Assembly (NCBI GenBank): GCA_902760845.1 | Contig: CACWHX010000004.1 | Coordinates: 1-64,000 of the forward strand | DNA: 64,000 nt | Origin: Oscillospiraceae bacterium | GTDB lineage: Bacteria; Bacillota; Clostridia; Oscillospirales; Oscillospiraceae | Direction of reading: 5' to 3' | Shown here: positions 26,939 to 54,837 of the stretch, in pieces | Layout: each line of letters opens with the position of its first letter | Numbering within the stretch: the first letter of the stretch is position 1 | Notes under the pieces: model-generated | Told to the model about the DNA's origin: nothing | Database searches by the model: none | The model's input: the letters and a program-made list of their open reading frames with translations, nothing else | Position numbers and translations under genes: made by a program

Positions 26939-27979
26939 ATGAAGCATTCCAAACCGGCCCGCGTGCTTGCGGTGCTGCTCGCCTGCGTGCTGCTGTGCGC
27001 GTGCGAAAAGCAGGAAGCGAGTGTTGAGGGCGTGACGAGCTCAGTCTTCGCCATGGACACGATTATGGACCTCACGCCCTATGGCGCGGCGGCGGAGGAG
27101 GCAAACACCGCGGCCGAGGCTCGCATCCTGGAGCTGGAGTCACTTTTTTCCGTCACACAGGAGGGGAGCGACGTATACCGCGCGAATCACGGCGACGGCG
27201 TCCCGGTGACGGTGTCGGAGGATACGGCCGCGCTGCTGGAAACGGCGCTGCGCGTCTGCGCGCAGACGGACGGCGCGCTGGACATTTCGATCTACCCCGT
27301 GCTGCGGACGTGGGGCTTTACCACAGGGAGCTACCAGGTGCCGGACGAGGCGGAGATCCAGTCGCTGCTGGAGCGCGTGAATTATCGGGATATAGCGTTT
27401 GACGCCGATGCGCGCACGGTGTCGCTGCCGGACGGAATGGAAATCGACCTCGGCAGCGTCGCCAAGGGCTACACCGGCGATCAGGTGATGCAGGTGTTCC
27501 GGGACACGGGCGTCACGTCGGGGATGATTAACCTCGGCGGGAACGTGCAGGTGCTCGGGACGAAGCCGGACGGCAGCGCCTGGCGCGTCGCCGTGCAGGA
27601 CCCGCGGGGCGACGGGTATGTCGGCGTGATCGAGGCGGTCGATCAGGCGGTCATCACCTCCGGCGGCTATCAGCGCTATTTTGAGCAGGACGGGGAAATC
27701 TATTGGCACATCCTTGACCCCGCAACCGGCGCCCCGGCGCACAGCGGCGTGATCTCCGCCACGGCTGTCGGTGACTCCGGCACAATGTGCGACGCGCTCT
27801 CAACGGCGCTGTTTGTCATGGGCGCCGATCGCGCCGAGGACTATTGGCGGACCTATGGCGGGTTTGACTATCTGCTCGTCACAGAGGACGGAAAAATCAT
27901 TCTGACAGAGGGGCTGGCCGACCGGTTTGAACCCCTCGGCACATGGGAAAGCAGCTCCGTTACGGTGGTGAAGAAATGA
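26939..27979 (+). CDS. apbE: FAD:protein FMN transferase (ApbE/FmnB), lipoprotein
   Basis: A 346-residue lipoprotein (lipobox LLCAC) that covalently attaches FMN through a phosphodiester bond to Thr/Ser in exported FMN-binding domains. The family signature TSGGYQRYFEQDGEIYWHILDP (seen as SGGYQRYF and HILDPATGAP), the DLGSVAKGY motif and the metal-binding DALSTALFVMG are present. It heads a cluster that contains its likely substrates: FMN-binding domain genes at 29099, 31973 and 33544. The pilin at 53149 is a further candidate. In Listeria FmnB performs this job for the electron-transfer lipoprotein PplA. ATG 26939 follows GGAAAGGAA. It overlaps the next gene by four bases. Confidence 0.95.
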   Translation: MKHSKPARVLAVLLACVLLCACEKQEASVEGVTSSVFAMDTIMDLTPYGAAAEEANTAAEARILELESLFSVTQEGSDVYRANHGDGVPVTVSEDTAALLETALRVCAQTDGALDISIYPVLRTWGFTTGSYQVPDEAEIQSLLERVNYRDIAFDADARTVSLPDGMEIDLGSVAKGYTGDQVMQVFRDTGVTSGMINLGGNVQVLGTKPDGSAWRVAVQDPRGDGYVGVIEAVDQAVITSGGYQRYFEQDGEIYWHILDPATGAPAHSGVISATAVGDSGTMCDALSTALFVMGADRAEDYWRTYGGFDYLLVTEDGKIILTEGLADRFEPLGTWESSSVTVVKK

Positions 27980-28362
27980 AAAAGACCTCGTTCTGGGTCA
28001 TTTTGATTGCGGCGGTCGCCCTGCTGGCCGGGGTCGCCGCGGTGTGGCTGCAGATTCGCGGCGCGGGCGCGACCATAGCGAACATCTATCAGGACGGCGT
28101 CTGCATCCGCTCCATTGATCTCAGCAGCCTGACCGAGACCGTGACGTTCACGGTCGAAGGCCCCGCCGGTACGAATACCATTGAGGCGGAGCACGGGCGC
28201 ATCCGGGTCTCGCACGCGGAATGTCCGGACCAGGTCTGCGTGGAGATGGGCTGGCGTTCCGACGGCGCGTCGCCGATCGTGTGCCTGCCGAACAAACTTG
28301 TGATCCGGCTGGAGAACACGGCCGCGAGCGCCACGCCGGAGATTGACGGGGTGACGGGATGA
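27976..28362 (+). CDS. eetA: EetA-like NusG domain II protein
   Basis: A 128-residue protein with one N-terminal membrane helix (about residues 5-25) and an extracytoplasmic NusG domain II (IYQDGVCIRSIDL, HAECPDQVCVEMGW, PIVCLPNKLVI). The position between apbE and a Gx-transporter-type gene is that of EetA in flavin-based extracellular electron transfer loci, where EetA and EetB are needed to pass electrons from quinol to exported flavoproteins; the mechanism is not known. Translation is coupled to apbE by ATGA and to the next gene by another four-base overlap. The assignment rests on family plus context. Confidence 0.78.
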   Translation: MKKTSFWVILIAAVALLAGVAAVWLQIRGAGATIANIYQDGVCIRSIDLSSLTETVTFTVEGPAGTNTIEAEHGRIRVSHAECPDQVCVEMGWRSDGASPIVCLPNKLVIRLENTAASATPEIDGVTG

Positions 28363-28868
28363 AGGGCATGACGACCAGACAGCTGAGCCTGATGGCGCTG
28401 CTCACGGCCATCGCGCTCGCCATTCACGTGGCGGAGGCGCAGATTCCCGCGCCGGTGCCGATCCCCGGCGTGAAGCTGGGACTTGCGAATATCATCACGG
28501 TCTACGCGGTGTTTACGCTTGGCGCGGGCCCGGCGTGCATGATCCTGGCCGCGCGCATCTTGCTGGGGAGCCTGTTTGCCGGCCAGGCGATCTCGCTGCT
28601 GTACAGTCTGGCGGGCGGCCTGCTGTGCCTCCTGGCCATGCTGCCGCTGCGCAAGGTCCTCACACGAAAGCAGATCTGGGTCTCCAGCGTGATCGGCGCC
28701 ATTTTTCACAACGTCGGGCAGATCCTTGTGGCGATTGTCGTGACCGGTACGCCCGCAATCGCGAGCTATTTCCCGGTGCTGCTGCTCTCCGGTATTGCGG
28801 CGGGCCTCTTTACCGGCTTTGCGGCGCAGGCGCTGATTGCGAGGATGGATAAGCGCAAAAAGCAATGA
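28359..28868 (+). CDS. eetB: EetB-like Gx transporter-family membrane protein
   Basis: A 169-residue membrane protein with about five helices, of the family once named heptaprenyl diphosphate synthase component I and also called Gx transporter. The ECF-S-like region PIPGVKLGLANIITVYAVF and glycine-rich membrane segments are typical. It is translationally coupled to the EetA-like gene and followed by a terminator, so apbE-eetA-eetB form one operon. In electron-transfer loci this is the EetB position. An isoprenoid role seems unlikely because no synthase catalytic subunit is adjacent. Confidence 0.78.
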   Translation: MKGMTTRQLSLMALLTAIALAIHVAEAQIPAPVPIPGVKLGLANIITVYAVFTLGAGPACMILAARILLGSLFAGQAISLLYSLAGGLLCLLAMLPLRKVLTRKQIWVSSVIGAIFHNVGQILVAIVVTGTPAIASYFPVLLLSGIAAGLFTGFAAQALIARMDKRKKQ

Positions 28869-28894
28869 GCACACACGCAGTTTTCTCAATCGCA

Positions 28895-28939
28895 CGGAAC
28901 CCATATGCCAGGCCCGGCATACGGGTTCCGGCTTTTTTT
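28895..28939 (+). terminator. Terminator of apbE-eetA-eetB
   Basis: A 15-bp stem (28895-28909 with 28916-28930, one mismatch) is followed by GGC and seven T. Confidence 0.9.
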
Positions 28940-28985
28940 GGGACAGAAAACGGAAAATTGAAACAAAAAGATGCCGGAAAAGGGA

Positions 28986-29014
28986 TTGACTTTTCCGCCT
29001 TTAAATGCTATGGG
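28986..29014 (+). promoter_or_regulatory. Promoter of the SLH-FMN gene
   Basis: TTGACT (28986-28991) with a 17-bp spacer to TATGGG (29009-29014), preceded by TGC as an extended -10. The dyad at 29057 lies downstream, between the start of transcription and the ribosome site. Confidence 0.5.
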
Positions 29015-29056
29015 TAACTCGAGTTTGGCAATGCTAACTTTTATTTTTAAGCAGAG

Positions 29057-29072
29057 GTTAGTTTCCGCTAAC
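29057..29072. promoter_or_regulatory. GTTAG-N6-CTAAC operator, copy 1
   Basis: GTTAGTTTCCGCTAAC is a perfect dyad 26 bases before the ATG of the SLH-FMN gene. The same dyad, 14 of 16 bases identical, lies before the flavin-pilin operon (54899-54914). A single half-site (GCTAAC) also occurs at 29033-29038. The position suggests a repressor site. The regulator is unknown. Confidence 0.65.
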
Positions 29073-29098
29073 GAAAAAGAAATGAAAGGGGTCATTCC

Positions 29099-31849
29099 AT
29101 GAAGAAAAAGCAAATCCTCGGCCTGCTCCTGAGCCTGGTTCTGGTGCTGGCGCTGGTGCCGGCGGCACACGCGGCGGACATTGTGGAGCCATTCACGGAT
29201 GTTCCGACCGGCGTGTTTTACTCCGACCCGGTCGCGTGGGCGGTGGACGAGGCCATCACAAACGGCACGTCCGCGACGATGTTCAGCCCGGAAAAGGTCT
29301 GCACGCGCGGGGAGATCGTCACATTCCTGTATCGTTACGCCGGCAAGCCCGCGGTATCGAATGTGAAAAATCCGTTTACGGACGTAGCGGAAGGTACGTT
29401 CTACTATAACGCCGTCCTCTGGGCGGTGGCCAATGAGATCACCAACGGCATGACGCCGACGACGTTCGGACCGGACAGCCCGTGCACCCGCGCGCAGATC
29501 GTCACGTTCCTGTACCGCTATGCCGGGAAGCCCGCGGTGTCGGGCGCGTCGAATCCGTTTACGGATGTGAAGGCGGACAATTATGCGTACGACGCGATTC
29601 TCTGGGCGGTGGACAATGGGATCACCAACGGCATGACGCCGACGACGTTCGGGCCCGACAATCCGTGCACCCGCGCGCACGCGGTGACGTTCCTGTATCG
29701 CTATGCGCAGACGGTGCCGGAAGAGTCTGTGGTCTATGTTCTGATGAACATTCCGTACGATACGTTCTATCGGAACGTGATCGGCACGGCGCAGCAGAGC
29801 GGGATCGACGCAGTGACGTCCTCCACCGGCAAAAAGGCCGCGTACTTCTGGGACGGCACGGTGAAGGGGAACGCGGAGGTTGCGTTCGGCGCGGACAAGA
29901 CCATTTACGGCGTGCGTTTCCCGGTCGCGCTCTCCGCGTCTGATTTCGACAAGCTGAGCACGAACCTTGAAAAGAGCGATGCGTACTATGCGGAGCGGCT
30001 CAATGAAACGCCCGCGCTGTACACCACGGCCACGGTGTCCGATAACGGCGGCGTGACGCTCAATCCGCTGGACGCGCAGGCCACGGCGCTTTCGGGCGCG
30101 ACGGTTTCGCTCTCGGACGAAAGCAAGCATGGCGACTACCTGCTTACGATCACCAATGACGGCGGCGTTCTCTCCAGCGCCGACAAGGCGACCTTTGCGG
30201 TTTACGGCGCCGTGCTGAAAACGGCGGACAAGGAATATGCGCTGCGCCACCTTGAAAATCTCTACTACAAGGATTTCAACGAGATTGCGTTCTGCACGAC
30301 TTCCACCGTGACCGGCAAGAATCTTGTGGTGGACCCCGAGTATTTCGCCGATCTGGAGGGGAAGACGATCACGGAGATCGACTACTACACGAATGCCGGC
30401 ATCTTCACCATCCAGACGAACGTGAAGGTGACGCCGGCCGCCTATGCGCTGATGAACATCCCGTACGACGTGTTCTACAGCGCGGAGGGGACCGCGAGCT
30501 TTGACGCGGACGCGGTGTCCTCCGCGACCAATAAGGTCGGCAACTACGGCAAGGCCGGCGGCGCGTTCCACTCGATCGCGACGGCGAGCGTGGCCGATGA
30601 CGGAACCGTTACCGCCGTGGGCGGCGCGAACGGCGCGCACCTGGAGGGCGTGACCTGGCCCGTCAAAGTGGCCGACGCGGAGCAGCTCGCGCTGCTCGGC
30701 GGCAAGGAGATCACCAACGACACGACCGTGACGGTCGCGACGGTTGGCCGCGGAGCGACGAGCTCCACGGATCTCACCGGTGCCGCGACGCTGATGGAGG
30801 CCCCGGCCTATTCCTACTACATCCTGGACGGCAAGCCGGACTATTACATGGAGCTGACCGTGAACGGCACGACGCCCGCGTTCTCCGCGCTCGTCGGCCG
30901 GGCGACCACGGTGGACAATCTGGAGGCCGGCGTGTCCTATGCCACCAACTGGGGCGACGTGCAGCTGGATCTGTCCAAGGCGGCGGAGGTGTCCGACAAG
31001 CAGGTGAACGCGATGGTCATCACCACGAAGGACGGCGCCTCGGCAGGCATGATCCATCTGTATAACGTCTGGTCCAACAGCGACATCGGCTGGAGAGTCG
31101 CGAACGTGCAGGGGCTGGACGGCACGACCATCACGAACATTCGTTACTACTGCAACGACAAGAACGGCAATTACTTCGTCTACGATTATCCGGTCTCTCT
31201 GGACATTCTGCCGATCTATACCGGCGAAGTGACCGCCGCGTTCGCGGACAGCGGCACGGTTGAAGTGACCGGGCTTCCGGCGGATATCCAGAACCCGACG
31301 GCAAAGGTGTATCACACCACCGGCGGCAGAAACCCGGTTCTGACCTACCTCACGCCGACCTACATCGACCCGGCGGACGGCGACGTTGAGCCGGAGACCG
31401 TTCCGGTCACGGACGGCAAGATTGCGCTGACGAACGCGCCCGAGGACGGCAAGACCTATGTCGTCGTGATCGGCAGCGACAACTATTTCGCCATCACGAT
31501 CTCGGCCGAGTATGTCAACGTGGACGGCGACTATACCGCGACGGCGACCGTGCAGGACGTGGAAGGCGATTTTGCCGACTATGACATCACGGTTCAGGTC
31601 ACGGTTTCCGATGGAAAGATCAGCGACCTGAAGGTGACCGAATACGGCACTGCGTATGACAGCGACAACGATCCCTATATGAAAAGAGCGCTGACCAGCG
31701 GCAGGGGCGGCGTTGCCGGCATCGCCGCGCAGGTGCAGGGACAGGATGCCACCGGCGCGCTGCAGATCGACGCGGTAACCAGCGCGACGTGCTCCTCCAA
31801 GGCGCTGATCGAGGCGATCGACGCCGCGCTCGCGGCAATCCGCGCGTAG
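29099..31849 (+). CDS. SLH-domain surface protein with FMN-binding motifs
   Basis: A 916-residue exported protein. A signal peptide (to AHA, residue 25) is followed by three SLH repeats (about residues 30-205), which bind secondary wall polymer. A central region has two related modules beginning VLMNIPYDTFY and ALMNIPYDVFY, and the C-terminus is an FMN_bind-like domain (about 815-916). The flavinylation-type motif D-x-x-[ST]-x-A-[ST] appears as DAVTSAT (Thr897), DAVSSAT (Thr477) and the imperfect DAVTSST (Thr243). The first small residue is Ser rather than the usual Gly, so flavinylation is inferred. It would place flavins in the S-layer/wall, beyond the membrane-anchored carriers encoded downstream. 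Confidence 0.85.
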   Translation: MKKKQILGLLLSLVLVLALVPAAHAADIVEPFTDVPTGVFYSDPVAWAVDEAITNGTSATMFSPEKVCTRGEIVTFLYRYAGKPAVSNVKNPFTDVAEGTFYYNAVLWAVANEITNGMTPTTFGPDSPCTRAQIVTFLYRYAGKPAVSGASNPFTDVKADNYAYDAILWAVDNGITNGMTPTTFGPDNPCTRAHAVTFLYRYAQTVPEESVVYVLMNIPYDTFYRNVIGTAQQSGIDAVTSSTGKKAAYFWDGTVKGNAEVAFGADKTIYGVRFPVALSASDFDKLSTNLEKSDAYYAERLNETPALYTTATVSDNGGVTLNPLDAQATALSGATVSLSDESKHGDYLLTITNDGGVLSSADKATFAVYGAVLKTADKEYALRHLENLYYKDFNEIAFCTTSTVTGKNLVVDPEYFADLEGKTITEIDYYTNAGIFTIQTNVKVTPAAYALMNIPYDVFYSAEGTASFDADAVSSATNKVGNYGKAGGAFHSIATASVADDGTVTAVGGANGAHLEGVTWPVKVADAEQLALLGGKEITNDTTVTVATVGRGATSSTDLTGAATLMEAPAYSYYILDGKPDYYMELTVNGTTPAFSALVGRATTVDNLEAGVSYATNWGDVQLDLSKAAEVSDKQVNAMVITTKDGASAGMIHLYNVWSNSDIGWRVANVQGLDGTTITNIRYYCNDKNGNYFVYDYPVSLDILPIYTGEVTAAFADSGTVEVTGLPADIQNPTAKVYHTTGGRNPVLTYLTPTYIDPADGDVEPETVPVTDGKIALTNAPEDGKTYVVVIGSDNYFAITISAEYVNVDGDYTATATVQDVEGDFADYDITVQVTVSDGKISDLKVTEYGTAYDSDNDPYMKRALTSGRGGVAGIAAQVQGQDATGALQIDAVTSATCSSKALIEAIDAALAAIRA

Positions 31850-31886
31850 GCGCACGCACGCGGCGGGCTGCCAAACAACCCATCCG

Positions 31887-31913
31887 TGGCGGGGAGTGTT
31901 TCGCTCCCCGCCA
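31887..31913. other. Intergenic hairpin
   Basis: A 10-bp perfect stem (31887-31896 with 31904-31913) without a T-tract, between the SLH-FMN gene and the multi-FMN gene. It may tune expression of the downstream membrane genes relative to the abundant surface protein. Confidence 0.55.
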
Positions 31914-31972
31914 TGTGTGGGTTTCCCGCCCGCCGTGGGGAATAAAATTCGTTTTGGATGGGAGGAATGCGC

Positions 31973-33547
31973 ATGGATCAAACGCGAAGCGCCGTATGGA
32001 GCCGCTGGCGGTTTCTGCTGTTTTTGCTGCCGGCGGTGCTGGTCGCCGTTCTCGTTTCCATTACGCTGCCGCGCACGGCGCCGCAGCTGGAGGCGATTCC
32101 GGAGCGGCTGGAGCTGCTCACGGGCGGCGACGGACCCTCGCAGGCCGCGCTGACGCTGCCGGTGGACGTTGCGGACGGCGTCTATACCGGCTCCGCGCGC
32201 GGCTTCGGCGGCCCGATAACCGTGGAGGTCACGGTCAAGGACCGCCGGATCACAGCCGTGGAGATCGTATCCGCCGCCGGGGAGACCGAAAACTATTTCC
32301 GCCAGGCCCGGCGCGTGCTCGAGGCGGTCTATGAAAAGCAAACCTGGGAGGTCGATGTCGTCTCCGGCGCGACCTACAGCAGCCGCGGCATTCTCGGCGC
32401 GATCCAAAACGCGCTGACCGGCGAGACGGTGAACAACCCCGCGCCGCCGCAGGCGAACGCGGGCAAACGGGCGGCGGTTGACACCTTCGACGAACCGGCG
32501 GCTTATCGGGACGGCGTCTATCGCGGCACGGCGCAGGGCTTTGGCGGCGATATCACCGTGGAGGTGACGATCAGCGGCGGCAGGATTGCGGCGATCAACG
32601 TCGTCAGCGCGTCAGGGGAGACGCAGACCTATCTCACGCGCGCGCTCTCAGTCGTCTCCGCCATGCGCAACGCGAACTCGCCGAATGTGGACACGGTTTC
32701 CGGCGCGACGTTCAGCTCCGCCGGGATCATCAACGCGACGAAACGCGCCCTGAGGCAGGCGGCGGCGGACCCGGACAGTCCGGCGATTGCGGAGCCCGCG
32801 GACCCGGCGCCGGTGGACAATCCGGACGCGATGCCGGAAAAGCCGCTCGCGGACGGCGTCTATACCGGCACCGGCGAGGGGTTCGGCGGGGATATCACCG
32901 TGCAGGTCACGGTCTCCGGCGGCCGGATCACGGCTGTGGAGATCGTCAGCGCCGACGGAGAAACGGCGGCGTATCTGAACCGCGCCAAGGCGCTGCTGCC
33001 GAAGGTTCTCGGCACGCAGGGGACGCACGTGGACGCCGTTTCCGGCGCGACCTACAGCTCGAAGGGGATTTTGGAGGCAATCGACGCGGCGCTTCGCAAG
33101 GCGGCCGGCGAGGACGCGGCCGAAACGCCGCAGCCGTCCGAGCCGCCGACACCGTCAGATCCGCCGGACGAGCCGGAGTCTCCGTATGCGGACGGCGTCT
33201 ATACCGCGTCGGCGTGGTGCGACGACGGGGAGGACTTCCGCTACCAGATCGTCGTCACGATCACGATCACCGACGGGAGAATCGCCGCTGTGCATATGGA
33301 GCGCGGGCTTGACGAATCGGACGACCCGTCCGCCAACGACGTCTACTACAACCGCGCGCTGAACGGCGCGACGCGAAACGGCGTGACGACGCCGGGCATC
33401 CCGGCGCAGATCGTAAGCAGACAGACCGCGGACGGGATCGATGCTGTGAGCCGCGCGACCTATACCTCCAACGCCGCCCAGGCCGCGGCGCGGCAGGCGC
33501 TCGCGCAGGCGACGGCGGCGAAAAACGGAGGGGGCGCGTCGGGATGA
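31973..33547 (+). CDS. Membrane-anchored protein with four FMN-binding domains
   Basis: A 524-residue protein with one N-terminal membrane helix (about 13-32) and four tandem FMN_bind domains joined by Pro/Asp/Glu-rich linkers. Each begins DGVYTG-like and contains FGGxITVxV. The attachment motifs are DVVSGAT (Thr134), DTVSGAT (Thr246), DAVSGAT (Thr360) and a degenerate DAVSRAT (Thr496, Arg in place of Gly). Multi-flavinylated proteins of this type are proposed as flavin wires across the wall, with FMN added by ApbE. ATG 31973 is preferred, seven bases after GGGAGG. It overlaps the next gene by four bases and begins the three-gene membrane part of the locus. Confidence 0.92.
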   Translation: MDQTRSAVWSRWRFLLFLLPAVLVAVLVSITLPRTAPQLEAIPERLELLTGGDGPSQAALTLPVDVADGVYTGSARGFGGPITVEVTVKDRRITAVEIVSAAGETENYFRQARRVLEAVYEKQTWEVDVVSGATYSSRGILGAIQNALTGETVNNPAPPQANAGKRAAVDTFDEPAAYRDGVYRGTAQGFGGDITVEVTISGGRIAAINVVSASGETQTYLTRALSVVSAMRNANSPNVDTVSGATFSSAGIINATKRALRQAAADPDSPAIAEPADPAPVDNPDAMPEKPLADGVYTGTGEGFGGDITVQVTVSGGRITAVEIVSADGETAAYLNRAKALLPKVLGTQGTHVDAVSGATYSSKGILEAIDAALRKAAGEDAAETPQPSEPPTPSDPPDEPESPYADGVYTASAWCDDGEDFRYQIVVTITITDGRIAAVHMERGLDESDDPSANDVYYNRALNGATRNGVTTPGIPAQIVSRQTADGIDAVSRATYTSNAAQAAARQALAQATAAKNGGGASG

Positions 33548-33993
33548 AGCGAAATTACATCGGGAAGCTCGCGAGCCTCGTGCTGATTCTGGCGGTGCTG
33601 TTCGCTTATCAGAGCGTGGCGAAGGCGCGGGAGGCACAGGTCGCGCAGAACCAGGCGGAGATTGCCGAGATCGACGCCTACAACCGGGAGCTTCTCCGGC
33701 AGCAGGGAGGCGGCAGCGCCTCCTACGAGCCGGGGACCTATACAGGGGAGGGCCAGGGCTTCGGCGGCGCGATCACGGTCTCCGTGACGGTGTCCGAAAC
33801 GGAGATCGAGGCAATCGAGGTGCTGACCCATGCCGGAGAGGACCCCGCGTACTTTTCGACCGCGGAATCCGTAGTGGACGCGGTTTTGCGCGCCCAGGGG
33901 ACCGATGTTGACACGGCCTCCGGCGCGACGTTCAGCTCGCTCGGCCTGCTGGACGCGATCAACGCTGCGCTGGAGGAGGCGGTGAAGGGATGA
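33544..33993 (+). CDS. Single-domain membrane-anchored FMN-binding protein
   Basis: A 149-residue protein with an N-terminal membrane helix (about 8-25), a short coiled segment rich in Ala/Gln/Glu and one FMN_bind domain (YTGEGQGFGGAITVSV). The attachment motif DTASGAT gives Thr129 as the predicted flavin site. It is sandwiched by ATGA overlaps between the four-domain protein and the NapH-like protein, so the three are co-translated. It is a likely first extracytoplasmic acceptor from the membrane ferredoxin. Confidence 0.92.
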   Translation: MKRNYIGKLASLVLILAVLFAYQSVAKAREAQVAQNQAEIAEIDAYNRELLRQQGGGSASYEPGTYTGEGQGFGGAITVSVTVSETEIEAIEVLTHAGEDPAYFSTAESVVDAVLRAQGTDVDTASGATFSSLGLLDAINAALEEAVKG

Positions 33994-34892
33994 AGCAGCG
34001 GGAAAACACGGCCGCGCAGCCGGCGCTGTGCCGGCGTCGGCTGCGCGGCAGAAAGCGCGCCGCGTGGCTGCGAACCGGTGTGCAGACGGTGTTCTTTTTT
34101 GCCATGCCGGGCGCGTTTGTCGCCGGCTTTTCCGGGGTGAAGAGCCTGTTTCAGAGCGTTGGCGCGGGCCAGCCGCTGCAGTGGAGCGGCTTTGTCGCGG
34201 CGCTGGTCGCGCTGTGCGCGTTCACCATCGTGTTCGGGCGGTTTTTCTGCGGCTATCTCTGCGCGTTCGGGAGCCTGGGCGACTTTGTCTACTGGCTCTC
34301 CGGCGTCGTGCAGAAGAAAGTGTTCAGGCGCCGGACGCAGTATCGCCTCCCGGACAGGCTGACACCCCTTGGCCAGAAGGTCAAATACGCCGTGCTCGCG
34401 CTGATCGTGATCCTCTGCGCGCTGAACGTCTATGACAGTCTCGGCGGCTGGAGTCCGTGGTCCGTCTTTTCGTTTTTGACGGCGCTTCGGTTTTCGTTTA
34501 GCGGCTATGAGATCGGCGTGCTCCTGCTGCTTTTGATCGTCGCGGGCATGGCGGTGAAGGAGCGGTTCTTCTGCCAGTTTCTCTGCCCGATGGGCGCCGT
34601 TTTCTCGCTGCTGCCGATTTTGCCCTTCGCCATGCTGCGGCGCGACCCGGAAAACTGCCTCACCGGCTGCCAGGCGTGCAAAAAGCAGTGCCCGGTCTCG
34701 ATCCGGCTGGAGGCGGACGGATTTCAAAACGGCGAATGTATTTCGTGCGAGCGCTGCGCGACCGTCTGCCCCAGGGAGAATTTGACGCGATGGGACAGAA
34801 GACCGGGCCAAAACGTGGCGCTTCCCGTGCTGTTCAAGGCGGCGCTCTTTTTTGCCCTGGGCGCCTGGCTCGGCCTGTGCCGGTTTCTGTGA
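33990..34892 (+). CDS. NapH-like membrane [4Fe-4S] protein
   Basis: A 300-residue polytopic membrane protein of the NapH/NosR-C/YccM type. About five helices carry FCGYLCAFG and FCQFLCPMG, membrane-proximal cysteine motifs typical of this family. A C-terminal ferredoxin domain has CLTGCQACKKQCP and CISCERCATVCP for two [4Fe-4S] clusters. Such proteins couple quinol or cytosolic donors to exported redox carriers. Overlap with the FMN gene and the shared terminator make it the electron-entry candidate for the flavin proteins (inference). Confidence 0.9.
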   Translation: MKQRENTAAQPALCRRRLRGRKRAAWLRTGVQTVFFFAMPGAFVAGFSGVKSLFQSVGAGQPLQWSGFVAALVALCAFTIVFGRFFCGYLCAFGSLGDFVYWLSGVVQKKVFRRRTQYRLPDRLTPLGQKVKYAVLALIVILCALNVYDSLGGWSPWSVFSFLTALRFSFSGYEIGVLLLLLIVAGMAVKERFFCQFLCPMGAVFSLLPILPFAMLRRDPENCLTGCQACKKQCPVSIRLEADGFQNGECISCERCATVCPRENLTRWDRRPGQNVALPVLFKAALFFALGAWLGLCRFL

Positions 34893-34908: not shown

Positions 34909-34950
34909 AAACCCCCGAATACGCAATTCTTGTGTGTTCGGGGGTTTCTT
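34909..34950. terminator. Bidirectional terminator
   Basis: AAACCCCCGAA (34909-34919) pairs with TTCGGGGGTTT (34937-34947), with A/T flanks, between the convergent NapH-like and exonuclease genes. Confidence 0.9.
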
Positions 34951-48895: not shown

Positions 48896-49438
48896 CTAAA
48901 AATCTCGCCTGCGGATTGTTGTAATGATCTTTCCCAGCAGATCGTCCGTCCTGACCGGACCATAGTAGCGGCTGTCCACCGCGTTTTCGCGGTTGTCTCC
49001 CAAAACGAAAACCTCTCCGTCCGCCAGCGTGATCGGATATACCGCGCCGCCTACAAATGCCAATGTCTCGCCTGCCGCGTAGTCCTCCTGCTGATAATAG
49101 CCGTTGATGCGCAGGCCGTCGCTTGTGATGTCCACGCGGTCTCCGGCCGTTGCCACGACGCGCAGGATCGAAAGCGTCCCGTCCCGGTTTCGGACCGCGA
49201 CCACATCCCGCACCTCGTACGTATGGTCCAGCCGGTAGTACACGGCCAGGTCCCGGTCCCGGATGGAGGGCGCCATGTCGTTGCCGCGCACGGAGCAGAC
49301 GCCGAAGACAAAGCGCTCCAGCAGAAAGAGCGCGGCCGCAATCACCATGAGCTTAATCAAAAGCGCCAGAAGGTCCGAGCGCAGAGAGGGCTGCTTCGGC
49401 ACAGCCGCCGCTTCAGCGGCTGCTTTCTTTTTTCGCAT
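48896..49438 (-). CDS. sipA: SipA-like pilus-assembly protein (inactive signal peptidase I paralogue)
   Basis: A 180-residue protein with the signal peptidase I fold. It has one N-terminal helix (about 22-42), the box normally reading SM-x-P (here GNDMAPSI), GDRVDI and the C-terminal FVLGDNRENAVDSRYYGPV. The catalytic serine is replaced by Asp54 and the lysine position reads ILRVV (Leu92), so peptidase activity is not expected. Streptococcal SipA, encoded in pilus islands with Spy0128-type pilins, likewise has Asp in place of Ser and is needed for pilus polymerisation. It overlaps the sortase gene by 26 bases and ends the operon. Confidence 0.85.
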   Translation of the reverse strand: MRKKKAAAEAAAVPKQPSLRSDLLALLIKLMVIAAALFLLERFVFGVCSVRGNDMAPSIRDRDLAVYYRLDHTYEVRDVVAVRNRDGTLSILRVVATAGDRVDITSDGLRINGYYQQEDYAAGETLAFVGGAVYPITLADGEVFVLGDNRENAVDSRYYGPVRTDDLLGKIITTIRRRDF

Positions 49439-50303
49439 TGCTTTTTCGATGCCTCCAATAGATTGTCAGGAGCAAAACCAGCAGCACGAGCGCAATCCAT
49501 ACCGCGTATGGAATGCCCCACAGCGAATGCCGCCGTGCTGCCTGCGCCGCGGTGTCCGCCGCGGCAGGCTCGGGCCGCGCGCTGACCGCGGCCGCCAGGA
49601 TCATCCTGCCATTGGTTTCGGAGGACGCGCAGGTGCTGAGCAGCACGATCCGCTCGCCTTCCTCGGGGAGCGCGTCGCTTTTCTGCTCAGCGAGCTCCAG
49701 CAGTCCGCGCAGGTACGCCCCGCTTTCCGCATCCGAAGTCTCCGGCGCGTAGACCGTCTGGTCATAGCCGTCCGCCCGAAGGAACGCAAAGATCCGCAGT
49801 GCGTGATTTTGCCCGTTATAAAAGAGGCTTCCAGTCTGGTGGGCGGCAAAGAAATCCTCGTCCGCAAAGGCGTCAAAGCAGCCGAACATATTGTCCCTTT
49901 CCATGTGGTGCCCATAGAAAATCGAGACCCTGTCCGTCATCTCCCGGCTGTTTCGGAAGTCCAGAAAAATGCTGCCGGACAGGGAAAACTCCCGCTCTGC
50001 GGACAGGTTGATATATTCAAAATTATCCGCTCCCTGCACGACCGGGTAGTCGATTTTCGTGTCGTCCACGGTCAGCCAACCGAAGACGTCCGGATTCCGT
50101 TCGCACAGCTGCGAAAAGGTCAGGTGTTCGCTTTCGGTTGGCTTATACTGCGCGTAGCGCACGGCGTCCGCTTCCTTCGCGATTTGCCCGGAGTCCCAGA
50201 GAATGTACGCGCCGAACAAAAACAGCGCCAACACCACGGTCAGCACGATCAGATTGATCGCCTCGTCGATCACGGCCACAATCCTTCGCCCGGCACTCCG
50301 CAT
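49413..50303 (-). CDS. Class B-type sortase (pilus sortase)
   Basis: A 296-residue transpeptidase. An N-terminal membrane helix (about 15-37) is followed by the sortase barrel with the catalytic His in FYGHHM (132/133), Cys225 in LLSTCAS and Arg233 in ETNGRM. Unusually it has a second C-terminal membrane helix (about 264-283) and basic tail. Class B-type sortases polymerise pili in FCT-type islands. Its likely substrates are the NPLTG, SPLTG and PVKTG proteins encoded just upstream. ATG 50303 overlaps the previous stop by one base. Confidence 0.93.
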   Translation of the reverse strand: MRSAGRRIVAVIDEAINLIVLTVVLALFLFGAYILWDSGQIAKEADAVRYAQYKPTESEHLTFSQLCERNPDVFGWLTVDDTKIDYPVVQGADNFEYINLSAEREFSLSGSIFLDFRNSREMTDRVSIFYGHHMERDNMFGCFDAFADEDFFAAHQTGSLFYNGQNHALRIFAFLRADGYDQTVYAPETSDAESGAYLRGLLELAEQKSDALPEEGERIVLLSTCASSETNGRMILAAAVSARPEPAAADTAAQAARRHSLWGIPYAVWIALVLLVLLLTIYWRHRKSNAKKESSR

Positions 50304-50896
50304 CACGCGCCCTGCCTTTTGCGCCGCGGCCGAAAGCACAAGACGAGGAGAACGGCGCCCGATACGCTCATCAGCGCAAGATAGACGGCGGGGCGGGCCT
50401 CGTCTCCTGTTTTCACCGGCGCGGTGCTGTTTGGCGTCGGCGCGGGCGATGGGGAGACCGCTGCGACCGGCGTGAGCGCAAACGTGATTTCGCTCTTTTT
50501 GCCGTCCTCGTTGTAGGCGAATACCGAGACAGAGCCGTCGCCGCGCACGCGCAGCAGCACCCGGCAGGATGCCGGTGTGACTGTGCAGCCCTGCGTCTTT
50601 TCGGCCCGCAGCGTATACCAGAAGTCCCCGGCGACGTCAGTTGGGATGGGGGCAAATGCGCCCTCTGCACTCCCGCTGAGCGTCAGCGTGCGCTGCGCCT
50701 CCGGCGGCATGGGATTCGACGGCGCGTCCGGGCTGAGCGTATAGGTGACGGATGCGGTCGCGTCAGCGGTCAAACTCTGGCGCACCGGGACAGACACGGC
50801 ATCCGCCGCCCATCCCGTCACGGGAAGCGCGACGAGGAGCATTGCCAGCAGCAGGAGGCCTGAAACCAGCACCCTGATACAGCATTTTGTTCTCAT
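50303..50896 (-). CDS. Small pilin/anchor subunit with PVKTG sorting signal
   Basis: A 197-residue exported protein: signal peptide (to GWAAD), a single FctA/FctB-like beta domain (TASVTYTLSP, DFWYTLRAEKTQGC, SEITFALTPV), a Pro/Ser/Thr-rich stalk (PSPAPTPNSTAPV) and the sorting motif PVKTGDEA followed by a membrane helix and RPRRKRQGA. The small size and proline-rich stalk suit a basal pilin that attaches the fibre to the wall. It lies between the vWA pilin and the sortase. Confidence 0.82.
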   Translation of the reverse strand: MRTKCCIRVLVSGLLLLAMLLVALPVTGWAADAVSVPVRQSLTADATASVTYTLSPDAPSNPMPPEAQRTLTLSGSAEGAFAPIPTDVAGDFWYTLRAEKTQGCTVTPASCRVLLRVRGDGSVSVFAYNEDGKKSEITFALTPVAAVSPSPAPTPNSTAPVKTGDEARPAVYLALMSVSGAVLLVLCFRPRRKRQGA

Positions 50897-50953
50897 AAAG
50901 CATTCCTTCTCCTTGATCCAGCCGCCGGAAGGCGGCTGGATCAGATCCTTCCG

Positions 50954-53119
50954 TCACCCACGGGCACGTTTCCGCTTCCGGTCGAACATGACTCCTGCGG
51001 CCGCGAATACCGCGAGCAGAAGCACGATCAAAAACGGCGCGTTGTTTTCCACCAGTCCCGTGAGCGGACTGTCCACATAGGCGTTGGTGAAGTCCACTTT
51101 GTTTTCGCCTTCGCCGGTGGTTTGATCCTGCACCTTCAGCTCCGAGCCGGCGCTCGCCGTGAAGGGCGTTGCGTTCTCCGTGCCGTCCGTGGTCACGACG
51201 GCCTTGGGCGCGTAGCTCTCTGCCGCGGCCTCTGTGACGGTGTAGCCCGTGCCAACGGGCACGGTAAAGGTGATCGTCTCGCCGTCCTTCAGCTGGAAGC
51301 TGTGCGCGTCGCCGTATTCCACCGTCGCGCCGTCGGTCGTGGGCTTCACGGTTCCGGCATTGTTCGCCGCCGTGAAGACGATGGTGTAGTCAAACGCCTT
51401 CGACGTGTCCGCGTGATTTCCCGTCACCGTCTTGCCGATCGTCAGCTCCGTGGTCTTCACACCCTTCGTGTAGGTGTTTTCAAACGTCATCGTATCGACC
51501 TTGACGCTCGTGTCGGCGGCGTTCGTCAGCGTCACGTGACCATTGTTGACGCCGTCCGTGTAATCGGTCTCGACGGTGTCCGAAGCGGTTTTGCAGACCT
51601 TGATGGACAGGATGTATTCTGCGCTGTCATACTGCACACGCTCCAGATTGGATGCCGCATAGGTGTCCGGCTTCTCCTTGATGGAGTAGGTGAAAACGCC
51701 CTCCCCGGTGAATGACGAGAGGTCCGGGAGCGCCATGCTGCCGGTTTTTACGATCTGGTTGTTGCCATCCGGCGTGTCGCTGCTGCTGAAGCTGATCGTC
51801 ACGTCGCCGATCGCCGGCCCGCCGTTTGTCGGCGTTGCCTCGAAGACGAAGCCGGCCGCCGGGACCGTGCCGTCGCCGCTGTTTACCGTGAGGGTCTTCT
51901 CAAGCTGGATGGTCGTGGCGGAGGGCGCCTGCTTCGTGAGCGTGATCTGCGGCTCCTCGGCGTAGGGGACGGTGTTTTCGTCGCTCCCGTAGAAATAGCG
52001 AAGCGTTGCGCCGTCGTTGCTGGGGAGGCTGATGCTGTCGGTGCTTGCCGCGTTCGCCGCATCCCGCGCGCTTTGCGTGGGCTTCACATCAAAGCCCACG
52101 GAGAGAACCTCCCCGTCCGGGACCTCGCCGCTGTAGGTAACGGAGACGGTCTTGCCGTTCACGCTGGTTGTGTACTTGTTGGATGCGACCGCCGTGCCGT
52201 TCAGTGTGACCGTCGGGGAAAAGCCGCCGTCCAGCTCCACGTACTGACTGAGCGTGTCGGAAATGGTGACGTTGGAGAGCGGGGTGGAGGATACCGTCGT
52301 CTCCTCCTGGATGATCTGAAGCGCGCTGTTGAACGCATTCACCATTGCGCTTGCGTTTGCCGCAGCATAATATTTATTCGCGTCGCTGGCGATGCTTTTG
52401 ATCTTATCGTCAGACTCATACCAGTAGGCTGGCGGCAGGCCGACGGAAAAAACCGTCGCCTTCTGTTTGACGGCGTTTGCCGCGGCGTTGATGGTCGCCT
52501 GAGAGTCGCTCGCATCGCCGTCGGAGAAGAAGATGACATATTTGTTGTTGCCGTCGTTTTTTATGACGCTGCCGTCAAGCTGCGCGTTGGCGGCGTTCAG
52601 CCCGGGCGCATAGGTGGTATCATAGGAATAATTATCGTTATGAAGCGTCAGACCGTCTATGATTCCGTTCAGCGTCTGTTTGCTTGTCGCCGATATCGAG
52701 GTCCAGTCCTGATTCGTCCAGACGGGCGTACTCCCCGAGTTGCTGGTCATGCCGAAGGTAATCAGCGTGATATGCGAATCGCTGTCGTTTTTCAGGCCGG
52801 ACACAAATTGCTTGACAGCGCTCTGTATGGCGCTGAGTCTCGTCGTCCCATCGGACATCGTCGATTTCATGGAGCTTGTGACGTCTATGACCAGAACGAT
52901 ATCCGCGTGCCCGTTCGTTGTTGTCGTGCTGGAGCTGCTGGACACCTTGTCTTTCCCCGTCACGTTCAGTGTCAGGGTGTAGGCGTCTCCACTGCCGCTG
53001 ATGCTCTTGTGGTGTGTTGGGACGGTGTCCGCCGCCAGCGCCGCCGGCATGAGCCCGACCAGCAGCGTCAGCGCCATCAGCACGCTCAAAAGCCTGCTTA
53101 CCTGTTTTTTTGCTTTCAT
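50954..53119 (-). CDS. vWA-domain pilin with Spy0128-type isopeptide domains
   Basis: A 721-residue exported surface protein. A signal peptide (to ALA, residue 30) precedes a vWA domain with a MIDAS-like DVTSSM (Asp79) and SDGDASDS. Two Spy0128/FctA-type domains follow, each with a candidate isopeptide Lys (in LEKTLT and IGKTVT) and Asn (in FENTYTK and FTNAYVD). The end is DSPLTGLVE (683-691), a membrane helix and RKRKRARG. vWA pilins are usually tip adhesins. ATG 53119 follows GAAGGAG at seven bases; an upstream in-frame start at 53152 would overlap the previous stop. Confidence 0.9.
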   Translation of the reverse strand: MKAKKQVSRLLSVLMALTLLVGLMPAALAADTVPTHHKSISGSGDAYTLTLNVTGKDKVSSSSSTTTTNGHADIVLVIDVTSSMKSTMSDGTTRLSAIQSAVKQFVSGLKNDSDSHITLITFGMTSNSGSTPVWTNQDWTSISATSKQTLNGIIDGLTLHNDNYSYDTTYAPGLNAANAQLDGSVIKNDGNNKYVIFFSDGDASDSQATINAAANAVKQKATVFSVGLPPAYWYESDDKIKSIASDANKYYAAANASAMVNAFNSALQIIQEETTVSSTPLSNVTISDTLSQYVELDGGFSPTVTLNGTAVASNKYTTSVNGKTVSVTYSGEVPDGEVLSVGFDVKPTQSARDAANAASTDSISLPSNDGATLRYFYGSDENTVPYAEEPQITLTKQAPSATTIQLEKTLTVNSGDGTVPAAGFVFEATPTNGGPAIGDVTISFSSSDTPDGNNQIVKTGSMALPDLSSFTGEGVFTYSIKEKPDTYAASNLERVQYDSAEYILSIKVCKTASDTVETDYTDGVNNGHVTLTNAADTSVKVDTMTFENTYTKGVKTTELTIGKTVTGNHADTSKAFDYTIVFTAANNAGTVKPTTDGATVEYGDAHSFQLKDGETITFTVPVGTGYTVTEAAAESYAPKAVVTTDGTENATPFTASAGSELKVQDQTTGEGENKVDFTNAYVDSPLTGLVENNAPFLIVLLLAVFAAAGVMFDRKRKRARG

Positions 53120-53148
53120 ACTGTTTCTCCTTCTATTTTTTTGCTTTT

Positions 53149-54837
53149 TCACGCACGCCGGCGCCTGCGGTCAAGCGCGATCCCCGCCGCCGCGAGGACG
53201 GCGGCCAGCATGAGGATCAAAAACGGCGCGTTGCGCTCCGCCACGCCCGTGAGGGGATTGTCGTCATAAGTGTTGGTGAAGTCCGCCGCGTTCGTTCCAT
53301 CGACGATGCTGCCGCTTATGGTCAGCGCCTGTCCCGACTGTCCGCTTTCGTCGCGCCGCGTGTCGCCCGCGGTCACGGCCGCGCTGGGGAGATAGTTGGG
53401 CGCCGCCGCCTCGGTGATGGTATATGTTGTCCCCACAGGCGCGCTGAACGCAAGGCTCTGCCCGTCCTTCAGCGCAAAGCTTTTGGGCGTGCCGTAGGAG
53501 AGCGTCTCGGCCGCGCCGTCAATGGTGACGGTGGGCGCTTTGCCGCTCGAGACCCCATCCGGGTCCGTAAACGTGATGGTATAGGAAAAATCCCTGGACG
53601 AATCCGCATGCCTGCCGGAGACGGTTTTGCGCACGGTCAGCGTGCCGTCCGTCACCTTGCTGTAGGTGTTCTCGAACAAAAGCGCGTCGCACTTTTCGCC
53701 GACGGCCGCTCCGCTGTCATCCAGCCTGCGGATCTCCGTGCCGCACGGCTCGTACTTCCCGTCGCCGGTTTTGCAGAACTTGAGCTTCACCTGGTACGCG
53801 GCAGTGTCATAGACCATACGCTCGCCGGCCTGAGCCTGAAAGGTGTCCGCCGCTTCCCGGACGATGTAAGTGAATGTGCCCGCGGCGTGCAGCGCATCGG
53901 CGGGAATCGTGACAGAAACGCGCTTTGTCGCCCTCCCGGAGACCGCCGCGTCCTCCGGTCCAAACGTGATCGTCTGGGGCGCGATCTGCGGTGCGTTCGC
54001 ATCTGTGGAAGTAAAGGTGAATCGAAACGCGGCGCTCGGCGTCTCCGCCGCCTGGACATTCAGCGTCTTTTCCAGCTCCAGAACCTGCACCCCGTTGCCA
54101 GACGGATCCGTTCCGCCGCCGTTCGGCGCGCTTCCAAGCGCGTTTTTGATTGCGTCGGCAATGCACGCGCGATAGCCCTGCGGTGTTGCCGACGTCACGG
54201 CGTCTACAACCTCGGCGTTGGCGACGCTGCCCAGATACGCGCTACGCACCTGGTCCAGCAGGGAGTACCAGGAGCCGTCCGCATCCCGGATGACGATGTT
54301 GGTGATTTTTTCGTCGGACACCGTCACGTCAAGCGTGATGAAATGGCCGTTCGCCATGCTGCCTGTTCCGGTATACACGCCGTCCGCGACGCCGGAGGCG
54401 TCCTGCTGCGAGCCGGCTTTTGCGGGCGCGCTGGCCAGCGCCCGCTCGATCGCCTGGATCATATCCGAGGAATACTTGCCGGAGCTGCTTCCGGAGCCGC
54501 CCACTGAGGCCGACGAAACAGCGTCTATGCCGGAGCATGTTTCCAGCGTTGCCGGCTTGCCGATATAGCTGCCCTTCACGCTGTTCAGCAGATCGTTGAA
54601 CCGACTCTGCTTATCACTCGCATAGACGGTCATGTTGGATATGACGCCGTCGCTGACCGTCACATATACCGTGCCGTAGTAGTATTTGAGCTTGCCGTCG
54701 CTCCTTTTTGTCACGGTCACGGAGCTGGAATAGACGCCGTCCTCCGCCGTCTCGCCCGCGTTCAGCGCGAGCGCCTCCATGGCGCATAAGGACAGCAGCA
54801 TTACAGCCGCCAGAACCAGGGACACGATTTTTTTCAT
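53149..54837 (-). CDS. Flavin-binding pilin: two FMN-binding domains fused to isopeptide pilin domains
   Basis: A 562-residue exported protein and first gene of the pilus operon. After a signal peptide (to about 25) come two FMN_bind-like domains (33-135 and 152-234) with attachment-type motifs DAVSSAS (Ser111) and DAVTSAT (Thr218). Two Spy0128/FctA-type domains follow, with candidate isopeptide residues Lys257/Asn390 and Lys404/Asn522 and glutamates in REA and TEA. The sorting signal is NPLTG (527-531), then a membrane helix and RRRRRA. The motifs carry Ser where Gly is usual, as in the SLH protein at 29099. If flavinylated by ApbE and polymerised by the sortase, it would form a flavin-bearing pilus (inference). 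ATG 54837 follows AAAGGGGGAG. Confidence 0.88.
   Translation of the reverse strand: MKKIVSLVLAAVMLLSLCAMEALALNAGETAEDGVYSSSVTVTKRSDGKLKYYYGTVYVTVSDGVISNMTVYASDKQSRFNDLLNSVKGSYIGKPATLETCSGIDAVSSASVGGSGSSSGKYSSDMIQAIERALASAPAKAGSQQDASGVADGVYTGTGSMANGHFITLDVTVSDEKITNIVIRDADGSWYSLLDQVRSAYLGSVANAEVVDAVTSATPQGYRACIADAIKNALGSAPNGGGTDPSGNGVQVLELEKTLNVQAAETPSAAFRFTFTSTDANAPQIAPQTITFGPEDAAVSGRATKRVSVTIPADALHAAGTFTYIVREAADTFQAQAGERMVYDTAAYQVKLKFCKTGDGKYEPCGTEIRRLDDSGAAVGEKCDALLFENTYSKVTDGTLTVRKTVSGRHADSSRDFSYTITFTDPDGVSSGKAPTVTIDGAAETLSYGTPKSFALKDGQSLAFSAPVGTTYTITEAAAPNYLPSAAVTAGDTRRDESGQSGQALTISGSIVDGTNAADFTNTYDDNPLTGVAERNAPFLILMLAAVLAAAGIALDRRRRRA

Follow-up and report, generated by a model that had tools for sequence, protein, structure and literature searches.

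Gene content of the locus

We analyzed a 64,000-nucleotide stretch of DNA (hereafter, the window), positions 1 to 64,000 of contig CACWHX010000004.1 (contig C4 below), from the metagenome-assembled genome (MAG) of an Oscillospiraceae bacterium (GCA_902760845.1; 2.09 Mb in 118 contigs, 97.5% complete). Between positions 26939 and 34892, the forward strand of the window carries seven genes, each matching its named family in Pfam searches, that appear to encode a flavin-based electron conduit leading from the cell interior to the cell surface and built around a NapH-like ferredoxin. We favor this reading, with some reserve, over the alternatives weighed below. It is directly supported by the gene content, the domain architectures, the recurrence of the same gene set in other genomes, the Tp47 fold of the surface protein, and missing genes for quinone synthesis and type II NADH dehydrogenase (NDH-2).

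The first three genes form a compact cassette. The apbE gene (26939..27979; PF02424, E = 1.9e-84) encodes a lipoprotein with a lipobox-like sequence (LLCAC), the flavin adenine dinucleotide (FAD):protein flavin mononucleotide (FMN) transferase that acts as the flavinylation enzyme. The eetA-like gene (27976..28362; PF07009, E = 3e-30) encodes a small secreted or membrane protein of the NusG_II family with one N-terminal transmembrane helix (TM), and the eetB-like gene (28359..28868; PF07456, E = 7.8e-40), present in a single copy in the genome, encodes a substrate-binding subunit of the energy-coupling factor (ECF) type, ECF-S, which, by the function of its Listeria counterpart (PMC9973259), is a probable FAD exporter feeding ApbE. 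The cassette is closed by an intrinsic terminator (28895..28939), a strong GC-rich hairpin followed by seven T residues, which lies within the 230-base gap between eetB and the next gene. Because this terminator parts apbE-eetA-eetB from the downstream genes, the locus is predicted to consist of at least two transcription units rather than a single operon.

The second group opens with the gene for a 916-aa surface protein (29099..31849) that combines a signal peptide, three S-layer homology (SLH) repeats expected to anchor it in the wall or S-layer (29186..29683, bounds approximate; PF00395 in three stretches, E = 6.1e-31), Tp47-fold units and a C-terminal FMN_bind domain (31583..31831; PF04205, E = 2.5e-10 to 9.3e-10). 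It is followed by the gene for FMN4 (31973..33547), a protein with one N-terminal TM and four FMN_bind domains (32201-32416, 32537-32752, 32879-33094 and 33245-33502; PF04205, E = 1.2e-57), the gene for FMN1 (33544..33993), with one N-terminal TM and one such domain (PF04205, E = 2.8e-14), and the gene for the NapH-like polytopic ferredoxin (33990..34892; two PF12801 matches, E = 1.1e-13), which contains about five hydrophobic helices, two C-x3-C[PA] motifs following TM helices and two 4Fe-4S motifs. An 18-bp hairpin with a short T stretch at its end (34909..34947) terminates the group. The original prediction, made from the sequence alone, had named the cassette with its ATGA overlaps, the one-FMN-domain membrane protein and the NapH-like ferredoxin, and all of these held up: the four families that it proposed to search for (PF07009, PF07456, PF04205 and PF02424) were found in the expected proteins, and 4-base ATGA overlaps join apbE to eetA, eetA to eetB, FMN4 to FMN1 and FMN1 to napH. 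The multi-flavin carriers and the wall-anchored end point that it envisaged are likewise supported by the domain matches. The spacer of 123 bases between the SLH gene and the FMN4 gene folds at -68.8 kcal/mol and includes a very stable hairpin without a T-run (31886..31914), which may set the relative expression of the two genes.

The target motif of ApbE is D-x-x-[ST]-G-A-[ST] (PMC12052999). It is present in canonical form in FMN1 (DTASGAT) and in the first three domains of FMN4 (DVVSGAT, DTVSGAT and DAVSGAT), the four-domain architecture announced for FMN4 being recovered in full, the canonical motif in only three of the four domains. Throughout the genome, FMN_bind domains are confined to this locus (six domains) and RnfG, which belongs to a complete rnfCDGEAB cluster on contig C60 (curated models over cut-off); the genome further encodes two ApbE proteins, one EetB and one NapH-like protein. 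This confinement, together with the recurrence of the combination at 62 loci elsewhere, places the locus beyond chance.

The Tp47-like surface protein and recurrence of the gene set

The SLH protein had been described as an SLH protein with FMN motifs. The three SLH repeats and one FMN_bind domain bear this out; the other motifs, DAVSSAT and DAVTSST, are located outside the FMN_bind domain, in Tp47-fold repeats that make up the bulk of the protein and had been overlooked. For residues 213-808, no Pfam match was obtained, a sequence search against the PDB gave nothing useful, and the Tp47 models PF14889 and PF14888 did not match the protein at E values up to 10; sub-threshold matches to K1-lyase_N and NEAT-LRR in this region were discarded. 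Iterated profiles delineated a repeat unit of the form YVLMNIPYxxFYxAE...D-x-[FV]-[ST]-S-A-T-x-x-K that is common to 34 large secreted proteins encoded beside such operons. The window protein contains a degenerate first unit (29735..30433), recognized through partial matches to the iterated profile (domain E = 2.6e-15 and 7.2e-31), and a second unit (30434..31522) with the loop motif DAVSSAT.

In a Foldseek search, an AlphaFold2 model of unit 2 (363 aa; mean predicted local distance difference test, pLDDT, 88.6) was closest to Tp47 of Treponema pallidum (1o75; E = 1.3e-9), and VIA-align superimposes the two over 286 residues (Z = 17.4, root-mean-square deviation (rmsd) 4.8), the runner-up reaching Z = 8.0 with only one immunoglobulin (Ig) domain aligned. 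When the unit was predicted without its Ig domain (N-terminal 254 aa), Z was 11.9 over 198 residues (rmsd 3.6; runner-up Z = 5.0), and Foldseek with the N-terminal part alone still ranked Tp47 first, at E = 1.8e-3 only. At the level of sequence profiles, hhalign connected the unit with Tp47 (38 against 21 domains) at E = 5.5e-6 and a probability of 86, and with alignments A2 against A3 it gave a probability of 4.6 over the motif segment only; this support thus depends on the alignment, and the assignment is based on structure. According to the models, the repeat unit has the Tp47 fold. The common descent of the unit and Tp47 is likely, not proven, in view of the shared motif, the shared genomic setting and the co-occurrence of both in one chain. 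The window protein and Tp47 share the fold of the whole unit, a D-x-x-[ST]-x-A-T loop motif and genomic proximity to FMN-binding proteins; they differ in that the window protein shows about 14% identity, falls below the Tp47 Pfam models and is built of SLH-anchored repeats, whereas Tp47 is a lipoprotein.

Searching named genomes with a three-sequence NapH alignment, and their napH neighborhoods (within 9 kb) with six-frame profile searches, we recovered 62 napH loci, several of them truncated by contig ends. The hosts include Faecalibacterium prausnitzii and other Faecalibacterium, Blautia (luti, wexlerae, schinkii and massiliensis), Coprococcus catus, Hominifimenecus, Butyricicoccus, uncultured Roseburia, one Coriobacteriia MAG and many MAGs from ruminant guts. 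An FMN_bind frame corresponding to FMN1 lies directly upstream of napH in 57 of the 62 loci, and a multi-FMN protein (47/62), apbE (46/62) and eetB (30/62) are found nearby. In genome G044 (locus L035), FMN_bind and NapH are fused in a single chain with apbE adjoining, which speaks for a direct partnership of FMN1 and NapH. The gene order varies: in Faecalibacterium it is Tp47-FMN2/3-FMN1-napH, and apbE is not found up to 9 kb away; in two congeners it is SLH-Tp47like, FMN1, napH, apbE, eetA, eetB (L033) and napH, apbE, eetA, eetB, SLH (L034).

The Tp47-like unit or Tp47 domains occur within 9 kb of napH in 46 of the 52 adequately flanked loci, Tp47 domains as such in 19 (the Fisher p of 7e-17 for this proximity takes no account of phylogeny and is not to be read as a probability). 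The partner protein in Faecalibacterium, Blautia, Coprococcus and Coriobacteriia carries PBP-Tp47_a and PBP-Tp47_c (E down to 1e-75); true PF14889/PF14888 matches are found at sister loci L107 (from F. prausnitzii), L129, L133 and L144, and at L133 the Tp47 domains stand beside the new unit and FMN_bind in one chain. Among 395 genomes of the order, Tp47_c is present in three, all three times at a flavinylation locus (two full napH-FMN-apbE blocks and one locus with FMN_bind and apbE) and all three times in a chain with the new unit, a count that is uncorrected for phylogeny and comes from genomes that are not fully independent (overlap with L125). In the genome that contains the window, a profile search found the unit at this locus only. 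The congeners G005 and G007, which lack napH, also carry it, once beside an SLH-FMN_bind protein, so that napH is not an absolute partner.

The loop that bears the motif is a second common feature. It reads FDAVSRAT in Tp47, D-x-V-[ST]-R-A-T in the Tp47 proteins from gut bacteria and D-x-x-[ST]-S-A-T in window-type units, where D26, T32 and K34 are invariant in 34 copies; none of the 21 Tp47-type copies examined lacks the motif, and the loop is predicted to be disordered in unit 2 (pLDDT < 50 at residues 25-33). By its sequence, this loop looks like an ApbE target in which another residue stands in for the glycine, and a change of this glycine to alanine is reported to reduce flavinylation (PMC12052999). 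Tp47 is a dominant, well-known surface antigen of the syphilis spirochete whose function is puzzling, and it is annotated only as a penicillin-binding protein. In T. pallidum, the gene for Tp47, TP0574 (PMC11100446), is two locus tags away from TP0572, annotated as an FMN-binding domain protein (PMC5607219). We tentatively raise the possibility, which we consider more doubtful than the conduit itself, that flavin-based extracellular electron transfer employs the Tp47 fold as a dedicated component in different phyla and that the loop D-x-x-[ST]-[SR]-A-T either binds FMN covalently in the manner of an ApbE target or docks flavin. If so, Tp47 would first of all be a redox protein of the surface with TP0572 as its partner, its penicillin binding being incidental, and the gene set described here would supply the machinery so far missing for the reduction of flavins outside the cell by F. 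prausnitzii.

Proposed electron path and competing explanations

In the proposed mechanism, EetB, with housekeeping ECF subunits, would export FAD, from which ApbE would attach FMN covalently to the FMN_bind domains. The NapH-like protein would accept electrons at its cytosolic 4Fe-4S centers, with reduced ferredoxin, or some other carrier in the cytosol, a likelier donor than quinol; ferredoxin is suggested by Rnf, which the genome encodes, and by the two 4Fe-4S motifs on the cytosolic side, and an endogenous quinol is unlikely because the searches turned up neither a quinone prenyltransferase nor NDH-2. Outside the membrane, FMN1, which corresponds as a separate protein to the FMN domain that NosR/PceC-type proteins carry in fusion, would take over the electrons, membrane-anchored FMN4 would pass them through the wall, and the SLH-anchored Tp47-fold flavoprotein with its C-terminal FMN_bind domain would be the end point that docks or reduces an extracellular acceptor. 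Candidate acceptors are free flavins and oxygen, as suggested by the physiology of F. prausnitzii (PMC4486957), and ferric iron or heme. The direction of electron flow, the order of the carriers, the donor and the acceptor are all inferred. Of the two entry points that had been suggested, the NapH-like protein is supported; entry through EetAB was rejected on the basis of genetic work in Listeria, where EetB acts as the ECF-S subunit that binds FAD and is required to bring it out of the cell for ApbE, and where mutants cleanly deleted for eetA transfer electrons like the wild type (PMC9973259). The opposite direction, in which an extracellular donor is oxidized and electrons are delivered inward, finds a precedent in NapH-like systems that serve oxidases (PMC8238504); the locus encodes no oxidase and the host is a fermentative anaerobe with Rnf, which makes electron uptake very improbable.

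The locus belongs, by its sequence features, to the class of NapH-like flavinylated systems with multi-flavinylated and cell-wall-binding (SLH/Rib/FIVAR) proteins described by Meheust et al. 2021 (PMC8238504; Fig. 4A, 6D-F): a PF12801 protein with several TM helices is clustered with FMN_bind proteins and ApbE, and the cluster includes a protein with more than one FMN_bind domain as well as an SLH protein. The class and the window locus both have a large SLH protein, ApbE, a membrane protein with PF12801 and FMN_bind proteins encoded on their own, among them one with several FMN domains; a path through the wall was already proposed there. The large wall proteins were called unannotated in that work, whereas here they are assigned the Tp47 fold and the set is traced through named gut genera. 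The main text of PMC8238504, as distinct from its supplementary tables, mentions neither Tp47, Faecalibacterium nor Blautia, and a literature search whose scope excluded supplementary tables and subscription papers yielded no paper joining Tp47 or Faecalibacterium with flavinylation. As far as the literature searched shows, both the assignment of the Tp47 fold to the wall protein and the repeated association of this protein with flavinylation are new. The unannotated wall protein of multi-flavin operons thereby gains an identity, Tp47 gains a testable redox context that suggests a job for the whole Tp47 family, and a complete candidate conduit is placed in abundant human gut genera.

This assignment displaces the earlier view of the locus as a variant of the Listeria-type system. 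The locus of Listeria monocytogenes comprises Ndh2, EetA, EetB, FmnA, FmnB, PplA and Dmk, and NADH electrons would reach a flavoprotein lipoprotein via quinone and, in the version considered for the window, EetAB. The ApbE, EetA-like and EetB-like proteins, present as a cassette (PF07456 and PF02424 over cut-off), are shared with it, and FMN4 is weakly similar to the PplA model (NF041941; 50.9 bits against a cut-off of 325). The full set of FMN_bind proteins in the genome includes no PplA-type protein above that cut-off. The absence of PplA, NDH-2 and quinone genes, initially noted for the window, extends to the whole genome: no match to the UbiA family (PF01040) was obtained in this 97.5% complete genome, with 14 of 14 control genomes positive, and none of its 17 Pyr_redox_2 proteins is NDH-2-like by length, TM prediction and family models (the models applied to four). 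A membrane NDH-2 (K03885) in the flavinylation cluster is the operational definition of Listeria-type electron transfer (PMC8238504), and this cluster contains none; instead of Ndh2, PplA and a demethylmenaquinone prenyltransferase, the window has a NapH-like protein and wall-anchored multi-flavin carriers. Together with the published role of EetB and the dispensability of eetA, this leaves the Listeria-type mechanism the least probable of the explanations considered.

Other relatives are more partial. NosR and PceC also pair one FMN domain with a polytopic Fe-S protein; their FMN_bind domain is fused to the NapH-like part, whereas here two overlapping genes are involved and no N2O or organohalide reductase is encoded nearby. 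The protein is not the NapH of periplasmic nitrate reductase, as it scores 77 bits against cut-offs of 234 and 213 with the NCBIfam NapH models and the neighborhood has no nap genes. CbFMN4 and SaFMN3 resemble FMN4 in that a single chain holds several FMN_bind domains in a row as targets of ApbE; they were studied as recombinant proteins away from their operon, with no surface partner assigned (PMC10339131).

Several observations weigh against the conduit. It is a prediction from the comparison of genes and structures, and no acceptor gene is recognizable at the locus. The fourth domain of FMN4 (DAVSRAT) and the FMN_bind domain of the SLH protein (DAVTSAT) have non-canonical motifs; by sequence, four flavin sites are confidently predicted and two are doubtful. 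At related loci, R occupies the glycine position in 8 of about 237 FMN_bind domains of carrier proteins, so that variation at this position is not private to the window. A quinone gene was possibly missed, the MAG being 97.5% complete, and weak UbiA matches are present in seven of nine congeners; the three that were examined (G001, G003 and G007) lie in one conserved lipid-type gene cluster with no menaquinone genes adjoining, and quinol is disfavored as the donor of NapH. No FmnA-type ECF-T protein or ECF ATPase is encoded beside the cassette (the rest of the genome was not searched for these). Finally, apbE-eetA-eetB is found in most genomes of the genus in varied neighborhoods, mostly without napH, which points to a basic role in FAD supply and flavinylation, including that of RnfG.

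The last observation is the starting point of another explanation, namely that the cassette serves Rnf and lies incidentally beside the FMN and NapH genes, which would be a separate system. The complete rnfCDGEAB cluster, the terminator between eetB and the SLH gene and the finding that eetB in Clostridia most often sits with Rnf (PMC9973259) are consistent with it. Conversely, apbE is near napH in most of the 62 loci, apbE-eetA-eetB directly follow napH in two congeners, and FMN4 and FMN1 need an ApbE. We consider a merely incidental position improbable; the cassette probably serves both Rnf and the conduit.

A further alternative retains the conduit and changes its purpose from respiration-like disposal of electrons to the reductive uptake of heme or ferric iron, or to detoxification of oxygen. 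A Shr-like hemoglobin-interacting domain (PF07550) is present in the Tp47-like surface proteins of sister loci L114 and L133, which hints at a heme ligand in some lineages, and flavinylation has been linked to iron assimilation (PMC8238504). With respect to oxygen, the multi-FMN protein SaFMN3 reacts with it (PMC10339131), and F. prausnitzii copes with it by reducing riboflavin outside the cell, an activity that was measured and attributed only to a likely flavin reductase (PMC4486957). The hemoglobin-interacting domain is absent from the window protein and no iron or heme transporter adjoins the window genes; we regard such a purpose as unlikely, and still as the most serious of the rivals to electron disposal.

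Other flavoprotein and surface genes

The second ApbE of the genome (contig C19 of G000; L037, 3202-9060) is encoded four genes from a bifunctional riboflavin kinase/FAD synthetase, with no FMN_bind protein adjoining. Elsewhere in the window, a probable sortase-built pilus cluster on the reverse strand (48896-54837) encodes a sortase, a signal peptidase, and VWA and FctA-type (isopeptide) proteins.

In congener G007, two adjacent genes (L041, 11848-19463) encode giant SLH proteins, one with FMN_bind and the other with a Tp47-like unit, with neither napH nor apbE nearby; they might represent a stand-alone pair of surface flavoproteins. At another congener locus (L039, 9630-13387), one gene joins FMN_bind to a nitrite reductase of the cytochrome c552 type (PF02335), with genes for ResB and CcsA-type assembly proteins behind it; the product is predicted to be an NrfA-like enzyme with covalently bound flavin, here in a genus of Gram-positive bacteria. 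A similar gene order, judged by size and start sequence only, recurs at L047, L049 and L051, the four loci coming from congeners G001, G004, G007 and G003.

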